Below, in pieces: positions 15,692-25,772 of a stretch of 33,289 nucleotides of DNA. Numbering within the stretch: the stretch's first letter is position 1; the number at the start of each line of letters is the position of its first letter. The DNA is taken from the NCBI GenBank assembly GCA_028344155.1, contig JAOMAI010000009.1, positions 1 to 33,289 on the forward strand, in the 5' to 3' direction. Made by a program: the position numbers and the translations under genes. Under the pieces are notes generated by a model. It ran no database searches. It was not told the DNA's origin and saw only the letters and a program-made list of their open reading frames with translations. Source of the stretch: Candidatus Nitrosopelagicus sp. (GTDB lineage: Archaea; Thermoproteota; Nitrososphaeria; Nitrososphaerales; Nitrosopumilaceae).

Positions 15692-15711
15692 TGATGATCA
15701 GTTGATCATCA
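15692..15711. promoter_or_regulatory. Perfect palindrome TGATGATCA-GT-TGATCATCA between pit and phoU
   Basis: The 9-base arms (15692-15700 and 15703-15711) around a two-base centre form a 20-base perfect inverted repeat. It lies 19-38 bases after the pit stop and about 65-90 bases upstream of the TATA-like box of the AbrB-PhoU gene, which is the next gene in the same direction. A dimeric regulator site (possibly of the AbrB-PhoU protein itself) is more likely than a terminator, because the two-base loop is too short for a stable hairpin. Confidence 0.5.
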
Positions 15712-19975: not shown

Positions 19976-21268
19976 TCAAGCGTCAGATTTCTTTTTTGAC
20001 GACTCTAATTTTTCATCAAGGCTTAACTTGAACTCTTCTTCATCAGAGTAAGCTTGTTCTGCATGTTCACTGATATCCAAACCAACGTCTTCTTGTTCTG
20101 GTTCGACACGTATACCAATAAGATGTTTGATTAACTGTAAAAGTAGCCATGTTCCACCAAAGCCCATAGCAGCAGCAACTGCAATTCCAACACCCTGTAT
20201 CCAGATTTGATCCAGACTTCCAGAAATGAGCAAGCCGTCAACACCTGCGGGATTAATCAAAGTGCTTGCGAATATTCCAATTCCAAGTGCACCTACAATT
20301 CCTGCAATACCGTGAACGGAACTTACATCAAGTGAATCATCAATTTTTAATTTATCTCTAATTAGTACGACTCCTCCGTATGATAAGATACCAATTGCTA
20401 TTGCAAGAACAAATGCATGTTCTACGCTGACAAAGCCTGATGCAGGGGTAATTCCTGCAAGACCAGCAATAGCGCCGTTTATTGTAGCAACGATAGATGG
20501 TTTTCCTGTACGCATCCAAGACAATCCAGCCCAGATTAGAGCAGATACAGAAGATGCCAAGTGAGTTACAATTACAGTATTTCCTGCTACACCGCCAGAT
20601 GCGAGTGCGCTTCCTGCGTTAAATCCGAACCATCCTAGCCATAATAATGAAGATCCTAATACTGCAAGAGGAATGCTGTGAGGGATGTTTATGGCAGGGC
20701 CAAATCCTCTTCTTTTTCCAAGTACTAAAGCGGCTGCAAGTGCTGCCATTCCTACAGTAGTGTGAATAACGATACCACCGGCAAAGTCAACTACACCGAG
20801 TTCTGCTAACCATCCACCGCCCCAAACCATGTGAACGATTGGGTAATAGATGAGCATTGACCATGCAGATATGAATATGATAAAAGAGCTGAACTTCATT
20901 CTTTCAGCGATAGTTCCAGTTAGTAGTAAAGGTGTGATACATGCAAACATCAATTGGAACTTTACAAATAATACACCAGGAATTGTTGGCGCGTACTGTT
21001 CAAGAGGTGCATCCCAAGGAATTCCTTTCAAAAATGTCCAATCAAGATTACCAATAATACCCTGTGTTGATGGACCAAATGATAGACTGAATCCGAAGAC
21101 AAACCACATTACACTTAGGAGTGACATTCCAAAGAAGATCTGCATGAAAATCGAAACCACATTTTTCTTTCGCAAAAGACCCGACTCGAATAATCCAAGT
21201 GCTGGGATCATTAACAGAACCAAGCATCCTGCTATTAACATCCATGCTGTGTCTCCGGTATCTATCAT
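19976..21268 (-). CDS. amt: Ammonium transporter Amt
   Basis: The 430-residue protein has eleven hydrophobic segments and the Amt hallmarks: GLFESGLLRKKNVVS, TGTIAERMKF, DFAGGIVIHTTVG with pore His H169, and VSSVHGIAG with H319. The cytosolic tail after residue 390 is unusually acidic and long (EQEDVGLDISEHAEQAYSDE, then lysine-rich). It moves ammonium/ammonia, the energy and nitrogen source of ammonia-oxidising archaea, across the cytoplasmic membrane. It is divergent from glnK, the usual regulator of Amt; GlnK plugs the channel in other organisms. Confidence 0.96.
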   Translation of the reverse strand: MIDTGDTAWMLIAGCLVLLMIPALGLFESGLLRKKNVVSIFMQIFFGMSLLSVMWFVFGFSLSFGPSTQGIIGNLDWTFLKGIPWDAPLEQYAPTIPGVLFVKFQLMFACITPLLLTGTIAERMKFSSFIIFISAWSMLIYYPIVHMVWGGGWLAELGVVDFAGGIVIHTTVGMAALAAALVLGKRRGFGPAINIPHSIPLAVLGSSLLWLGWFGFNAGSALASGGVAGNTVIVTHLASSVSALIWAGLSWMRTGKPSIVATINGAIAGLAGITPASGFVSVEHAFVLAIAIGILSYGGVVLIRDKLKIDDSLDVSSVHGIAGIVGALGIGIFASTLINPAGVDGLLISGSLDQIWIQGVGIAVAAAMGFGGTWLLLQLIKHLIGIRVEPEQEDVGLDISEHAEQAYSDEEEFKLSLDEKLESSKKKSDA

Positions 21269-21311
21269 TAAAAATTTTGAAAGTTTTTTTCATTTAACAG
21301 TTTACCAATTT

Positions 21312-21328
21312 GGTTATCAGTGATAATC
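21312..21328. promoter_or_regulatory. Inverted repeat between amt and glnK, candidate operator
   Basis: GGTTATCA (21312-21319) and TGATAATC (21321-21328) form a near-perfect inverted repeat around one base, in the 112-base region between the divergent amt and glnK genes. The 11-mer AGTGATAATCA (21319-21329) recurs on the minus strand in the P-II fusion/sbtA intergenic region (22887-22897). This would suit a regulator shared by nitrogen and carbon uptake, but no factor is known. Confidence 0.45.
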
Positions 21329-21380
21329 AAAAGATGTACAATTTCTAAATTATTAATTACTTTGACAGATAAAATAATTC

Positions 21381-21710
21381 ATGTTAAAACTTGAAGTCAT
21401 ACTTGCAGAAAACGACGTGATGGAAATCAGTGAAGGATTAAAAGAAATTGACGTTGGCGGACTAACAATTATCAAAGTTAGAGGTCGAGGTGCAAAAACT
21501 GAGCCTGAAATTCACACATCAAAAGGTATGGAAGTGTTTACACCTCATTTTGGCGACAAATATAGAATGATGGTAGTAGTTCCAGAGTCAAAAGAAGAAA
21601 AAACCGTAGACATTATCAAGAAGAACGCAAGAAATGGTAAAATTTTCATCTCACAAATGTTACGGGCAATTGATATCAAATCCGGAAACGAAGGGGAAGA
21701 AGTTATCTAA
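21381..21710 (+). CDS. glnK: P-II nitrogen regulatory protein GlnK
   Basis: The 109-residue protein has the P-II fold: KLEVILAENDVMEISEGLKE at the start (KLEVILAEND), VRGRGAKTEPE leading into the T loop, and the B-loop-like KNARNGKIFIS (81-91). The T loop lacks the usual Tyr51 and is altered (EPEIHTSKGMEVFTPHFG), so uridylylation is unlikely, as in other archaeal P-II proteins. It should sense ATP/ADP and 2-oxoglutarate and gate Amt. A TATA-like box about 26 nt upstream suggests a leaderless message. Three small genes follow at once on the same strand. Confidence 0.92.
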   Translation: MLKLEVILAENDVMEISEGLKEIDVGGLTIIKVRGRGAKTEPEIHTSKGMEVFTPHFGDKYRMMVVVPESKEEKTVDIIKKNARNGKIFISQMLRAIDIKSGNEGEEVI

Positions 21711-21711
21711 A

Positions 21712-21834
21712 ATGAAATTATCACTCGATAGAAGTAAATTCTCAAAATTAACCAAATTAGACTATCTAAAATGCACAATTATAGGCGTAATAGTCGTAAT
21801 TCCACCTCTAATTATGATAATGTTGGTGAACTGA
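21712..21834 (+). CDS. 40-residue single-pass membrane microprotein after glnK
   Basis: The ATG at 21712 starts one base after the glnK stop. The product has a basic N-terminal half (MKLSLDRSKFSKLTKLDYLK) and a membrane helix (about 22-39, TIIGVIVVIPPLIMIML). No family is recognised. A longer frame extends upstream inside glnK, but the ATG at 21712 fits operon spacing. Position suggests co-expression with GlnK and Amt; a small membrane regulator or tether is possible but unproven. Confidence 0.6.
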   Translation: MKLSLDRSKFSKLTKLDYLKCTIIGVIVVIPPLIMIMLVN

Positions 21835-21839
21835 GGAAC

Positions 21840-22115
21840 ATGAGCCTTAGATTAATAACAAAACGTGGAACCTCAAACAAGATAGTTGAAGATGATATCA
21901 GCTACAACTGGGCAGGACAAACATTCAAAGAATATCAATCAAGAAGAACCGCATCAGTCATTTTATCTAAAAGAAATAAAACAGTGATCACCTCAGCAAG
22001 AGGAACTGTAACAAAATATTTGGAAAATTCTTCAGAAATTGAGTCATCCAAACCAAAAATGGCATATATTACCACAGAACGTGGAACAAAACGAAGGTTA
22101 ATCAAAATAAATTGA
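21840..22115 (+). CDS. 91-residue basic protein with three I-T-x-x-R-G-T repeats
   Basis: The ATG at 21840 gives a 91-residue basic protein. The motif I-T-x-x-R-G-T occurs three times: residues 6-11 (ITKRGT), 50-56 (ITSARGT) and 77-83 (ITTERGT), each followed by one or two residues and then Lys or Arg. There is no Cys, no membrane segment and no recognised domain. It lies between two membrane microprotein genes, five bases after the first and overlapping the start of the second. The repeats suggest repeated beta-hairpins that bind a charged partner (inference). Confidence 0.65.
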   Translation: MSLRLITKRGTSNKIVEDDISYNWAGQTFKEYQSRRTASVILSKRNKTVITSARGTVTKYLENSSEIESSKPKMAYITTERGTKRRLIKIN

Positions 22116-22231
22116 AACTAGAACAAATTACAACTCAAATTAGAAAATCAAAAATCTTTGTTGCTAAACTTGGCTTTGCAGCAGTAGGTATGACCTTACT
22201 TGGTCTGTATTTGTTTGCAGATTATATTTAA
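22112..22231 (+). CDS. 39-residue membrane microprotein, TTG start overlapping previous stop
   Basis: A TTG at 22112 overlaps the TGA of the 91-residue gene (TTGA), and the frame runs to TAA at 22229-22231. The product is MKLEQITTQIRKSKIFVAKL followed by a membrane helix (about 18-37, including GFAAVGMTLLGLYLF). The overlap suggests translational coupling. No family is recognised. It resembles the 40-residue microprotein two genes upstream only in layout (basic N-terminal half, one C-terminal helix). Confidence 0.5.
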   Translation: MKLEQITTQIRKSKIFVAKLGFAAVGMTLLGLYLFADYI

Positions 22232-22240
22232 AAAAAATTA

Positions 22241-22807
22241 CTAAATATCTTCGTAAAGCATTGTTGGATTCTTTAATTGCTTATCTAAGGTTGGGAGATA
22301 TTTCAAGATACAATAATTAACAAAATCGCTAAATGAACGAATTCTATAGTCAGATTCTAAAATTTCACTATGCTCATCATAATATTGTTCTAATTTATAC
22401 AAGGTTCGCTTTTGAAGTGGAACCAATCTATTACGTTTTGTAGTAAATCTAACAGGAGTAGGTTTTTCTTCAGGTTCTACATCAGCCTGACCTTCAAGAG
22501 TGGATAGATCAATACTTTCTTCCATATCAAAGACAAAAATTTTACTCTTGATAGATTGAGGAAGACCTGAATTTTTAGAAATTATTTCCAGGACCGCACG
22601 TGCTTCTTTGTCTTGCATAGCCAGTTCAATTTTTGCAAGCATTGTAGATCTAACACCAGTTCCACCAGCACGAGAACCTTTTGATTCACTGATGAATTTA
22701 CTGTCTTCTAAATTTCGTTTATCGATAATGTCAATACCCAAAGAATCTAATTTTTCACGAAGAACAGGGTAATTTTTTCGATTGATTATAGCTTCAATCT
22801 TCTTCAT
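22241..22807 (-). CDS. P-II-like domain fused to a C-terminal helical (possibly ribbon-helix-helix) domain
   Basis: Residues 1-105 follow the P-II pattern: MKKIEAIINRKNYPVLREKL, a T-loop region rich in Ser/Gly (ISESKGSRAGGTGVRSTML), then KIELAMQDKEARAVLEII and KIFVFDMEESI. A charged linker (about 107-120) leads to residues 121-188, a basic helical region with RSFSDFVNYCILKYL (157-171), reminiscent of ribbon-helix-helix or membrane-tethering helices. It ends ten bases from the last microprotein gene and is divergent from sbtA. It could read nucleotide or 2-oxoglutarate state and act on transcription of the neighbouring genes (inference). Confidence 0.72.
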   Translation of the reverse strand: MKKIEAIINRKNYPVLREKLDSLGIDIIDKRNLEDSKFISESKGSRAGGTGVRSTMLAKIELAMQDKEARAVLEIISKNSGLPQSIKSKIFVFDMEESIDLSTLEGQADVEPEEKPTPVRFTTKRNRLVPLQKRTLYKLEQYYDEHSEILESDYRIRSFSDFVNYCILKYLPTLDKQLKNPTMLYEDI

Positions 22808-22867
22808 AATATTTCGCTGAATTATTCTTTATTATACATAATCATTATTTCGAAACTATGGAATATT

Positions 22868-22897
22868 ATATCAAATGCATATCAAATGATTATCACT
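22868..22897. promoter_or_regulatory. Tandem 10-mers and shared 11-mer in the P-II fusion/sbtA intergenic region
   Basis: ATATCAAATG occurs at 22868-22877 and 22879-22888, one helical turn apart, followed by TGATTATCACT (22887-22897), the reverse complement of a motif in the amt/glnK region. The two genes are divergent across 152 bases, and this cluster sits near the middle, where an operator for both promoters would lie. Confidence 0.4.
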
Positions 22898-22959
22898 ATA
22901 GGCATCAAAAATGACCTCTGGATTTTTATTTCAGCAGAAAATTTTTTCAAATATAGCTA

Positions 22960-24042
22960 ATGGATATTTTAGAATTAATCCAATCGAATCTGCTAACTCC
23001 AATCATCCTATTCTTCTTGTTTGGGATTATTGCAGCACGAATAAAATCTGATTTAAAAATTCCTGAAGCAATTTCAGAGTTTTTGCCAATATACCTCCTA
23101 GCTGCTATCGGCCTTCATGGAGGAATAGAGATGAGAAAGACGGGTTTTGAGGAGATGTTAGTACCAATGCTAGTTGCAATAGGTCTGTCATTATTATTCA
23201 CATTGAACCATTATCAAATTCTAAGAAGATTAGGTAAGTTCAACATCTTTGATTCATACGCATTAGCATCCACATACGGGGCAGTTGGAGCAGTAACATT
23301 CTCAGTAGGATTGTCATTTCTCAAAAATCAAGGAGTTACATCAGAAGGGTATTTGGCAGCAATTCTTGCAGTATTAGAACCGGTAGCATTCATCTTGGCA
23401 ATATTTTTGACAAACATGGCAGTATCAAAACAGATTCGTACAAAAAAACAGTCATTTTCAGGTGACAAAGTATCTGATATCGACATGGGAATGAAAGAAA
23501 CTAAAACAAAACTTTCCCAGGTCTTAAAAGAATCAATTACAGGAAAAGCAATAGTAATTTTACTTGGAAGTATTGTAATTGGATACATAATTGGAGAAGA
23601 AGGTTTTGAACCAATCAGTATTGTTTTTGATGATCTGTTTACAGGAGCAATAGTAATTTTTATGATTGAGATGGGAATAATTGCAGGACAAAGATTAGAG
23701 GATATCAAAAAGGTTGGAGTTTTTCTTACCTCATTTGCAATAATAATGCCAACAATTAATGGAATAATCGGCGTACTAGTTTCAACAGCATTGGGATTAA
23801 GTTTAGGCGGGGCAGTTATGTTTGGATTACTTTTGGCTAGTGCATCATTTATTGCAGCACCAGCTGTTTTACGTCATGCCATACCTCAAGCTAATCCAAG
23901 TCTATACATTACATCAGCTTTAGGAATTACATTCCCATACAATATTATCGTGTTACTGCCAATCATGTTCACCGTTTCAACGTGGGTACATGGTGAAGAA
24001 GCAATAGACTTATTCAATTACGTTACAAGGGTGTTCATATGA
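22960..24042 (+). CDS. sbtA: SbtA-type sodium-dependent bicarbonate transporter
   Basis: The 360-residue protein has about ten hydrophobic segments in two inverted halves and SbtA family features: EFLPIYLLAAIGLHGGIEM, ALASTYGAVGAVTFSVGLSF, LAVLEPVAFI and, in the second half, LASASFIAAPAVLRHAIPQA. SbtA brings in bicarbonate with sodium at high affinity in cyanobacteria. Here it would supply the hydroxypropionate/hydroxybutyrate cycle, which fixes bicarbonate (pathway known for the group; role inferred). Its stop overlaps the start of sbtB (ATGA), as in the cyanobacterial pair. Confidence 0.87.
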   Translation: MDILELIQSNLLTPIILFFLFGIIAARIKSDLKIPEAISEFLPIYLLAAIGLHGGIEMRKTGFEEMLVPMLVAIGLSLLFTLNHYQILRRLGKFNIFDSYALASTYGAVGAVTFSVGLSFLKNQGVTSEGYLAAILAVLEPVAFILAIFLTNMAVSKQIRTKKQSFSGDKVSDIDMGMKETKTKLSQVLKESITGKAIVILLGSIVIGYIIGEEGFEPISIVFDDLFTGAIVIFMIEMGIIAGQRLEDIKKVGVFLTSFAIIMPTINGIIGVLVSTALGLSLGGAVMFGLLLASASFIAAPAVLRHAIPQANPSLYITSALGITFPYNIIVLLPIMFTVSTWVHGEEAIDLFNYVTRVFI

Positions 24043-24341
24043 AACTCTATGATGTGAAATTACTTACAATCACCTGTGAGATATTGGCACAGAAAAATGT
24101 CATCGATATTTTGAAGAATCATGAAATTACAGGATACACATCTTATGAAGTGGATGGTAATGGAGAAAAGGGATTAAGAGGTCAAGGAATACAAGCCGAA
24201 AAAAATGTTAAAGTGGAGGTAATTATGCGTGAAGAGAAATTATCAGCAGTAATTGAGGATATATCTAGAACATTATTTCCAGATTTTACCATAATTTTGT
24301 ACGTTAGTGATGTTGGCGTAGTTAGAACAGAAAAGTTCTAG
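24039..24341 (+). CDS. sbtB: SbtB-like P-II protein
   Basis: The 100-residue protein has a P-II-like order: KLYDVKLLTITCEILAQKNV, ILKNHEITGYTSYEV, a short T-loop region with GLRGQGIQAEKNVKVEV, and IEDISRTLFPDFTIILYV. Coupled to sbtA by a four-base overlap, it matches SbtB, which binds adenine nucleotides and closes SbtA. The C-terminal CGPxGC loop seen in cyanobacterial SbtB is absent. Its stop overlaps the stop of the convergent arsR gene by four bases (CTAG). Confidence 0.83.
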   Translation: MKLYDVKLLTITCEILAQKNVIDILKNHEITGYTSYEVDGNGEKGLRGQGIQAEKNVKVEVIMREEKLSAVIEDISRTLFPDFTIILYVSDVGVVRTEKF

Positions 24342-24637
24342 CAAGAGTTTTCATCAGTACATAAAGTTGGGATTTTATTGCTTGTTTTAGTCACAGCAGA
24401 TATCAAAGTAGATAGTTGAGGATTAGAAATTGAATACATTGCCTTTTTTCCCTCGTTTCTTGATTTTACAATTCCACATTGCTTTAGAGTTTTGAGATGA
24501 TGCGAAACAAGCGGTTGATCTTTTTCTAATTTATCAACAAAATCATTTACACATAATTCATCGTCTATTTGTAATAATTCTAAAATTTCAAATCTGGTTT
24601 CATCACAAATACACTTCAAAAGAGCAGGTCCATTCAT
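24338..24637 (-). CDS. arsR: ArsR-family metalloid-responsive repressor
   Basis: The 99-residue protein has an ArsR winged helix: ALLKCICDETRFEILELLQ, DELCVNDFVDKLEKDQP, and the recognition helix PLVSHHLKTLKQCGIV. C29 lies in the ELCV segment used by ArsR for As(III), with C9, C11, C54, C93 and C99 as further possible ligands. It should repress transcription until arsenite or another thiophilic metalloid binds. It is divergent from arsC across 41 bases that hold a long inverted repeat. Confidence 0.87.
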   Translation of the reverse strand: MNGPALLKCICDETRFEILELLQIDDELCVNDFVDKLEKDQPLVSHHLKTLKQCGIVKSRNEGKKAMYSISNPQLSTLISAVTKTSNKIPTLCTDENSC

Positions 24638-24644
24638 ATCAATT

Positions 24645-24678
24645 AATATTTATATCAACATATATTTATATAAATATT
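24645..24678. promoter_or_regulatory. ars operator/promoter: AATATTTATAT ... ATATAAATATT inverted repeat
   Basis: An 11-base arm (24645-24655) and its exact reverse complement (24668-24678) flank a 12-base spacer in the arsR/arsC intergenic region. The TATA-like TTTATATC lies about 25 nt before the arsC ATG (24679), and on the other strand a TATA-like stretch lies about 25 nt before the arsR ATG. ArsR binding here would block both leaderless promoters. Confidence 0.7.
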
Positions 24679-25086
24679 ATGACTAAAGACGTTCTGTTTG
24701 TATGTGTAGAAAATGCAGGTCGCAGTCAGATGGCAGAAGCATTTTTCAAAAAATTCTCAGAAGATAAATTTAATGTAATTAGTGCAGGAACAGTTCCTTC
24801 AACAAAGCTAAATCCAGTCGTTATACAAGTAATGAAAGAAATTGGAATTGACATGACAAATCAATCTCCAAAAACACTATCTCAATCAATGATTTCTAAT
24901 TCATTTAAGACAGTTAACATGGGATGCATGGATAAAGAATCATGTCCGGCACTTTTTGTAAAAGATGTAATTGATTGGAATATACCAGATCCTAAAGAAA
25001 AAACAATAGAACAGGTCAGAGAGATTCGTGATCAGATAAAATCTGAAGTTTTGAATTTGATTGCATCAATAGATGATGAAAAATAA
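24679..25086 (+). CDS. arsC: Arsenate reductase ArsC (thioredoxin-coupled, LMW phosphatase fold)
   Basis: The 135-residue protein has the P-loop C-x5-R (C9 to R15, VCVENAGRS), the redox cysteines C83 and C89 in NMGCMDKESCPA, and the catalytic-loop Asp in DWNIPDPK. This is the ArsC of low-molecular-weight phosphatase type, reducing arsenate to arsenite with thioredoxin. The ATG abuts the operator, giving a leaderless message. Its stop overlaps the start of the aquaporin gene (TAATGA), so the two are one operon. Confidence 0.93.
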   Translation: MTKDVLFVCVENAGRSQMAEAFFKKFSEDKFNVISAGTVPSTKLNPVVIQVMKEIGIDMTNQSPKTLSQSMISNSFKTVNMGCMDKESCPALFVKDVIDWNIPDPKEKTIEQVREIRDQIKSEVLNLIASIDDEK

Positions 25087-25772
25087 TGACATATTCAAAT
25101 TTACAAATTTTTACAGTTGAATTAGTTGGAACCTTCATTCTTGTAGTTTTTGCAACAGGCTCAATTGTTTTGGACGCAGAGATGTTTAACGGAGAACTGG
25201 GAATTCCATTTGCAGCAGTTGCACCATTTGTAGCACTACTAATTGGAGTTTATTCATTTGGAAAGATATCACTTGCACATTTCAATCCCGCTGTAACAAT
25301 TGGATATTACATTACAGGACATATTTCAAAAATTCAGGTAGTGTATTATTTTGCAGCAGAGATAATTGGTGCTATACTAGGTTCATTATTTGTTTTAACG
25401 ATAATTGGGGATAAAGCGGATTTAGGTGCAAATGCGCCAAACTTTGATTTTTCCATGCTTTTGATATTTCCGGTGGAAGTTTTGGCATCTGCAATGCTCA
25501 TGGGAGTCATATTTTATGTCGTGTATACAAAAGGTTTGAGAGGATTTAGCGGCGTAGCGATAGGAGGCATTGTGGGATTAGATATTTTGTTTTTGGCGTT
25601 TATTTCAGGTGCTTCAATGAATCCAGCCCGTGCGCTTGCACCAGCGTTATTATCAGGAGTAATGGAAAATTTGTGGCTATATTGGACAGCCCCATTTGTA
25701 GGAACCATAATTGCAGCGTTTGCATTTCGTGGAAAATTCAAGGCTCAAAGAGAAAGGGAAGCAAAGTCCTGA
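25086..25772 (+). CDS. Aquaporin/glycerol-facilitator family channel in ars operon
   Basis: The 228-residue protein has six hydrophobic segments and both pore motifs: NPA in HFNPAVT (67-69) and NPA in SMNPARAL (179-181), with R182 of the selectivity filter. In an operon with arsC and without an obvious arsB/acr3, it probably releases arsenite down its gradient, as known for AqpS of Sinorhizobium meliloti (precedent known; role here inferred). Some MIP proteins instead move water or glycerol. Confidence 0.9.
   Translation: MTYSNLQIFTVELVGTFILVVFATGSIVLDAEMFNGELGIPFAAVAPFVALLIGVYSFGKISLAHFNPAVTIGYYITGHISKIQVVYYFAAEIIGAILGSLFVLTIIGDKADLGANAPNFDFSMLLIFPVEVLASAMLMGVIFYVVYTKGLRGFSGVAIGGIVGLDILFLAFISGASMNPARALAPALLSGVMENLWLYWTAPFVGTIIAAFAFRGKFKAQREREAKS

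Follow-up and report, generated by a model that had tools for sequence, protein, structure and literature searches.

A P-II fusion protein with a ribbon-helix-helix-like domain and an operator-like array at amt-glnK in Nitrosopelagicus and its relatives

Contig JAOMAI010000009.1 (positions 1 to 33,289; the whole stretch of 33,289 nucleotides is called the window) belongs to a Candidatus Nitrosopelagicus assembly of 863 kb that is 65% complete (GCA_028344155.1, here G000). Within 4.4 kb it carries genes for an ammonium transporter, a bicarbonate transporter and three P-II-type proteins, one of them a P-II domain fused to a C-terminal helical domain. Are these genes controlled as one unit, and what does the fusion do? 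The gene order is amt (-), glnK (+), open reading frames (ORFs) of 40, 91 and 39 amino acids (+), the P-II fusion (-) and sbtA-sbtB (+), and the glnK-like gene, the fusion and sbtB were the only three P-II matches in the whole 65%-complete assembly. An earlier note on this DNA had read the stretch as a combined nitrogen/carbon island; its gene calls (amt, GlnK, P-II fusion, SbtA and SbtB) agreed with our profile matches, and it was right to single out the fusion as the novel element. Loci of relatives were collected and then searched with the window proteins; groups are labelled g1 (the window's genus), g2, g3, g4, g6, g7, g9 and g136 (other groups) and f2 (the Nitrosocaldus family). We propose that the fusion is probably a one-component P-II transcription regulator whose ribbon-helix-helix (RHH)-like domain acts on a TGATNATCA array, and which controls amt-glnK and, in several lineages, itself. 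This regulator with its operator is a finding worth testing, and it is stronger than the island reading. The features that carry it are as follows.

22241..22807, minus strand: P-II fusion of 188 amino acids (residues 1-105 P-II domain; about 106-123 variable linker; 124-188 RHH-like helical domain)
21310..21340, no strand: operator-like array in the amt-glnK gap, TTGGTTATCA-GTGATAATCA-AAAGATGTACA, with the invariant core TGATAATCA at 21321-21329
22865..22895, no strand: fusion-promoter array, TGATATAAT, TGATATGCA, TGATAATCA read toward the fusion, with the core TGATTATCA at 22887-22895

The array unit is TGATNATCA, repeated in steps of about 11 bp (one helical turn) with degenerate neighbouring copies. 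The exact core was found in all 24 amt-glnK gaps compared, against 1.4% of dinucleotide-shuffled gaps, and its middle base was A in 12 gaps and T in the other 12. Five near-identical loci (L096-L099 and L171) were omitted from the 24 gaps, and two with an interrupted fusion frame (L072 and L104) were included. Three exact core copies at 11-bp spacing were present in G144 and G309. By eye, the amt-glnK array sits between, and upstream of, both TATA-like regions. Array sites also occurred upstream of the fusion in three g1 genomes with sbtA elsewhere (G108, G340 and G412; loci L066, L166 and L167). Of six f2 loci, two of which seem to be one contig, five had the exact core in the gap between amt and the fusion, and the remaining one had a core with one mismatch. 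The window's two arrays explain the 11-mer that the earlier note had seen as shared; it is real, lies at 22887-22897 (+) as TGATTATCACT and at 21319-21329 as AGTGATAATCA, and forms a single unit of the phased array.

These phased 9-bp palindromes, at which DNA binding is predicted, track the fusion gene. The scoring matrix was trained on the 24 gaps, whose recovery in a 1.196-Mb scan is therefore by construction; scoring covered 160 bases upstream of amt and 450 upstream of Amt2-type genes. Outside the training set, Nitrosopumilaceae amt promoters from genomes with the fusion carried the array in 14 of 14 genomes (scores 4.7 to 33.7). Four of these promoters (G053, G061, G138 and G221) came through a pattern match and the other ten through amt searches; together with G003 and G287, the four account for every g2 genome (six) in that pattern search, and L301 was dropped as the same place as training locus L173, which reduced 15 rows to 14. 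The f2 amt promoters had the array in all six genomes (5.5 to 16.3; seven rows, with L105 and L182 counted once). Among 13 amt promoters from 8 genomes without the fusion no array was found, and the best score was -0.5. A second amt in L311 had none either (-14.3), and the best of 19 Amt2-type promoters reached 5.1 (G203, no fusion), or 3.4 among the nine with the fusion. At scores of 14 or above, the 1.196 Mb gave 66 matches; apart from one site, matched on both strands, every one lay in an amt-glnK or fusion promoter.

In most Nitrosopumilaceae loci fetched, amt-glnK and the fusion are conserved together. The arrangement amt (-)/glnK (+) with a convergent fusion was kept in loci of g1, g3, g4, g6, g7 and g136, the fusion lies on the opposite side of amt in G192 and G068 (g7), and in f2 it is divergent from an amt of 43-44% identity, followed by a P-II gene (in G479 amt is elsewhere). 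The g2 genomes have the fusion beside another P-II gene near a phosphate transporter, with amt-glnK elsewhere; the array still stands at amt-glnK despite this separation, so that a link between fusion and array would act in trans. Sixteen Nitrosopumilaceae genomes had no intact fusion: twelve of them also had no Amt1-type transporter, and the remaining four (g9) kept the transporter and had no array. Three g1 genomes (G320, G332 and G345; 86-94% complete) showed neither a P-II match nor an Amt1-type amt, in line with the reported lack of the low-affinity amt in deep-water lineages.

The N-terminal part of the fusion is a P-II domain (PF00543, E 6.5e-6 over residues 1-101, 26.9 bits against a cut-off of 25). 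A 19-row fusion profile searched against PDB matched a solved archaeal GlnK (E 1.9e-12), and the fusion model aligned to GlnK structures with VIA Z up to 11.7 (root-mean-square deviation (rmsd) 7.4, 97 residues aligned). Over the same 19 rows the mean share of the commonest residue was 77% in the C-terminal 65 residues, 71% in the P-II part and 45% in the linker; the C-terminal domain is no less conserved than the P-II part, and its lead is modest. The same domain occurred as free open frames of 72-75 amino acids in two early-branching relatives, G575 and G496. A basic segment (K, R, R) ahead of its first helix is at least 90% conserved over 46 rows. The monomer model of the isolated domain (predicted local distance difference test score 87.8) has helices at 10-22, 24-31 and 36-56 and no strand. 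Eighteen of 22 Foldseek rows were what we take to be TCP- or RHH-type DNA binders (ParB of pCXC100, ParD2 and plant TCP factors), and the other four presumably three homeodomains and one nitroreductase. On re-alignment, 11 of 12 structure entries were, as we assume from their names, RHH or TCP-type DNA binders; the PutA RHH domain gave Z 3.8. Beyond what the earlier note had described as helical, the modelled domain thus resembles DNA-binding domains; we call it RHH-like, not RHH, a suggestive likeness below significance. In G287, a 55-amino-acid ORF that also looks like RHH lies between a P-II gene and the fusion (L079:10112-10279, minus strand) and had no Pfam match.

The fusion was restricted to the window's order in a phylum sample and a class sample of 300 genomes each. 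A contig scan gave, among the matches listed, at least 29 loci: 3 archaeal fusions and 26 bacterial loci with a match to the P-II part alone. In a search of 397 genomes, weak relatives of the C-terminal domain were found in frames of 81-164 amino acids, one of them outside the order (G228). Six loci (L359, L360, L361, L363, L364 and L365) hold frames of 132-164 amino acids in which a stretch like the C-terminal domain precedes a cysteine-bearing part; two of these frames were scanned against family models and gave no significant match.

Compared with known systems, the fusion shares the P-II fold and the place beside amt with GlnK/GlnB of the AmtB-GlnK pair; it differs from them by an additional C-terminal domain of about 65 residues and by altered T-, B- and C-loop positions. 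The one-component regulator NikR has an N-terminal RHH domain and a ferredoxin-like sensor that forms an ACT-like, nickel-binding tetramer. The fusion would likewise join a ferredoxin-like sensor to an RHH-type domain, but with P-II, normally trimeric, first and the RHH-like domain last. In AmtR-GlnK, TnrA-GlnK/GlnR and NtcA-PipX-PII, P-II controls transcription of nitrogen genes by contacting a separate factor, whereas the fusion would carry sensor and DNA-binding domain on a single chain. If true, this would be an unusual shortcut, as P-II signalling normally uses separate partners. Among the literature matches listed for P-II/GlnB with a ribbon-helix-helix or other fused DNA-binding domain, no such protein appeared in the titles or abstract openings.

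In the mechanism we propose, the N-terminal P-II domain would receive a nitrogen/energy signal, either directly or, hypothetically, by pairing with the neighbouring GlnK. The RHH-like domain would bind the TGATNATCA sites that recur every 11 bp or so where the amt (Amt1) and glnK promoters diverge; several lineages would add the array in the fusion's own promoter as a second target. The regulator would activate amt-glnK when ammonium is ample. This sign of control is the more likely one, because both TATA-like regions have the array on their upstream side and the low-affinity, glnK-adjacent amt of N. maritimus decreases under ammonium starvation according to the sections consulted of PMC9277239 and PMC7490402. 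PMC11334935, in the part consulted, agrees on this decrease and reports Amt1 expressed above Amt2 in Nitrosopelagicus brevis cultures. The low-affinity amt is confined to shallow water in the part consulted of PMC7490402, and the names Amt1 and Amt2 are reversed between some papers (PMC12254950, likewise in part). From the distribution and these papers we infer that the window amt is of the glnK-adjacent (Amt1, low-affinity) type. No regulator of it is named in the consulted sections of PMC7490402 and PMC9277239, and those of PMC10432482 describe the P-II proteins of ammonia-oxidizing archaea as GlnK/GlnB homologues and do not mention the fusion. A candidate regulator and a defined 31-bp operator make control of the low-affinity amt testable.

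Several results weigh against the proposed regulator. The Foldseek search with the C-terminal domain gave no significant match (best E 1.9), and the best VIA re-alignment, to ParB, had Z 6.0 with rmsd 7.1 over 56 aligned residues, a level the tool rates as common. None of 16 fusion members matched the Pfam RHH models; distant relatives alone reached E 0.013-0.071, below the cut-off and lowest for a trimmed piece, and profile comparison with archaeal RHH_1 gave a probability of 1-8% (reversed controls 0.1-0.2%). By sequence (Pfam, NCBIfam, PDB and profile comparison), RHH signals were thus sub-threshold or absent. The exact core was present in 8 of 23 regions upstream of the fusion (the window, four other g1 loci, G192, G068 and G371) and in none of five in g2. 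The array scores overlapped at the low end, 4.7 for G352 with the fusion against 5.1 for an Amt2-type promoter. A looser two-site pattern with two mismatches matched 33 of 35 genomes; 13 of the 15 that lack an intact fusion were among them (10 matches in G215). A stricter pattern matched 6 of 7 genomes with the fusion and 5 of 9 without. Loose genome-wide counts fail to separate the two groups because the pattern matches most of both; the co-occurrence signal is in the position at amt. An RpoB tree of 30 genomes gave three independent contrasts, all concordant (p 0.25) and too few for significance. Of nine ATP/2-oxoglutarate positions that we take as canonical for P-II (G35, G37, Q39, K58, G87, G89, K90, R101 and R103), K90 alone was retained throughout five fusion rows, and the window GlnK retains G35, G37, K58, G89 and K90 with the others changed, the loop alignment being approximate in both cases. 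The fusion therefore lacks most of the conserved ATP/2-oxoglutarate positions of canonical P-II (GlnB/GlnK) signalling. Binding or expression results for the fusion were looked for, and none were found.

These weak points leave some room for other explanations. The array could be bound by another regulator, for example of Lrp/AsnC or helix-turn-helix type, with the fusion as a protein-binding P-II whose tail attaches to Amt or GlnK, to the microproteins or to an enzyme, and with the co-occurrence arising through a shared Amt1 module. The sub-significant RHH assignment, the general habit of P-II proteins to act through protein contact and the 15 of 23 fusion upstream regions without the exact core fit this explanation. 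Against it, the array is missing where an Amt1-type amt persists without the fusion (g9 and f3) and is retained where fusion and amt are unlinked. In f2 the amt that carries it has no more than 43-44% identity and in most cases is divergent from the fusion; the conserved K, R, R segment before the first helix also counts against this explanation. We consider another regulator doubtful. An ordinary amt-glnK pair beside a degenerate paralogue of P-II whose tail has no relevance would agree with the eroded ligand residues of the P-II part, with the truncated gene of G278 and with the interrupted ones of G102, G325 and the L104 record. The tail of the fusion, though, is conserved from Nitrosopumilaceae to the Nitrosocaldus family, unlike that of a degenerate paralogue, and we regard this explanation as highly improbable. 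In G278 only the first 88 fusion codons remain, with no amt or glnK match within its 19.5-kb locus. The G102 fusion (L072:9626-10207) has one in-frame TGA, and its amt-glnK array is nonetheless intact.

The island of the earlier note, a 4.4-kb stretch co-regulated for nitrogen and carbon and selected as a unit, depends on the sbtAB side of the fusion.

22899..22959, plus strand: sbtA promoter block with a GATTTTTATTT box, common to genomes with sbtA elsewhere; the array adjoins the junction
22960..24042, plus strand: sbtA, Na+-dependent bicarbonate transporter family (PF05982 Sbt_1, E 2.1e-105, 352.8 bits; SbtA structure 7cye, E 1.4e-35)
24039..24341, plus strand: sbtB, P-II-like (P-II, E 9.6e-16), overlapping sbtA by 4 nucleotides

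Adjacency in the window's genus favours the island: fusion and sbtA are neighbours in 7 of 10 g1 genomes that have both (G000, G349, G354, G381, G389, G406 and G411; not G108, G340 and G412), the array core lies within 4 bp of the conserved sbtA promoter block, and in G192 a stretch of 12 kb contains both modules, in a different order. Outside the window's sub-clade, 17 genomes (G108 of the window's genus and 16 of other genera) had the fusion and sbtA on one contig. The distance was below 20 kb in G192 alone and above 80 kb in the other 16, so for sbtAB the neighbours are not conserved together and a single conserved island was rejected on synteny. Nor did any of ten non-adjacent sbtA upstream regions contain the exact core (four have a one-mismatch core somewhere); sbtA as the original target of the array was rejected on this count. 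The hint at common control that the 11-mer had given stood for amt-glnK and the fusion, where it is part of an array, and did not extend to these sbtA genes. The array belongs to the amt-glnK gap and the fusion promoter, as it lies upstream of the fusion also where sbtA is elsewhere. The conserved sbtA promoter block begins at 22899, 3 bp past the operator core, and is shared by G108, which indicates that rearrangement set the fusion operator beside an intact sbtA promoter. We conclude that sbtAB is a separate conserved block, which in some members of the window's genus has moved next to the fusion promoter, and that selection of the whole stretch as a unit is very unlikely.

A fuller version of the regulator proposal would combine these results. 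A P-II part without the usual ATP/2-oxoglutarate binding would read ammonium by mixing with GlnK, a trimeric P-II core with dimeric DNA-binding domains would give a hexamer fitting three phased sites, and through the rearrangement in the window's clade ammonium status would also set bicarbonate uptake. As a whole this is speculative and unlikely to hold.

Further members of the regulon were sought. Thirteen extra matches among those listed were rejected, as eight lie inside coding genes and none of the other five, which lie or may lie in gaps (L245, L246, L249, L251 and L252), was shown to be conserved. In some g1 genomes a PhoU/AbrB-like gene is preceded by operator-like sites (window 15692-15711; L168:18169-18199). 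An extra site was present in G412, and the window, L171 and L099 had a related inverted pair in the corresponding position; no such sites were found there in G108 and G411. A link to phosphate control is possible.

The other genes on the amt-glnK side are given below.

19976..21268, minus strand: amt, ammonium transporter (PF00909 Ammonium_transp, E 7.6e-112), with an acidic C-terminal tail by eye
21381..21710, plus strand: glnK-like P-II of 109 amino acids (Pfam P-II, E 1.2e-15)
21712..21834, plus strand: microprotein of 40 amino acids like a single transmembrane segment, type A; an ORF with relatives in several g7 loci
21840..22115, plus strand: protein of 91 amino acids; an ORF seen in g1 and the G192/G068 lineage
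22112..22231, plus strand: microprotein of 39 amino acids like a single transmembrane segment, type B; its TTG start overlaps the preceding stop, and it is kept between glnK and the fusion in many loci

By residue comparison, the GlnK-like protein has a shortened B-loop and several altered canonical ligand positions. The microprotein ORFs of the earlier note were present between glnK and the fusion; the two that resemble a single transmembrane segment are co-directional with glnK and have relatives in many g7 loci. None were found in L076 and L077 (g3 and g4), where glnK and the fusion almost touch. Differences among relatives of the 39-amino-acid ORF fell at codon positions 1/2/3 as 76/24/107 (six pairs), a coding signal; for the 40-amino-acid ORF a single pair gave 10/14/17, which is uninformative. 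The 91-amino-acid protein has three RGT motifs (KRGT, ARGT and ERGT), and its best Pfam match was sub-threshold (E 0.12).

On the other side, the closest solved relative of sbtB is the PII-like protein TTHA0516 (E 1.9e-12), followed by SbtB structures (SbtB7001, E 8.4e-8); by this match and the operon with sbtA, its product is predicted to be an SbtB. Next after sbtB come arsR (-) and two genes identified by eye, one of ArsC type and one aquaporin-like. The archaeal pair resembles cyanobacterial SbtA-SbtB in joining a transporter to a P-II-like partner through overlapping genes, but in many loci its neighbours are arsR, ArsC-type and aquaporin genes, frequently joined by pit (window 22960-25772), not nitrogen genes. 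This bicarbonate and arsenate-phosphate neighbourhood is unexplained.

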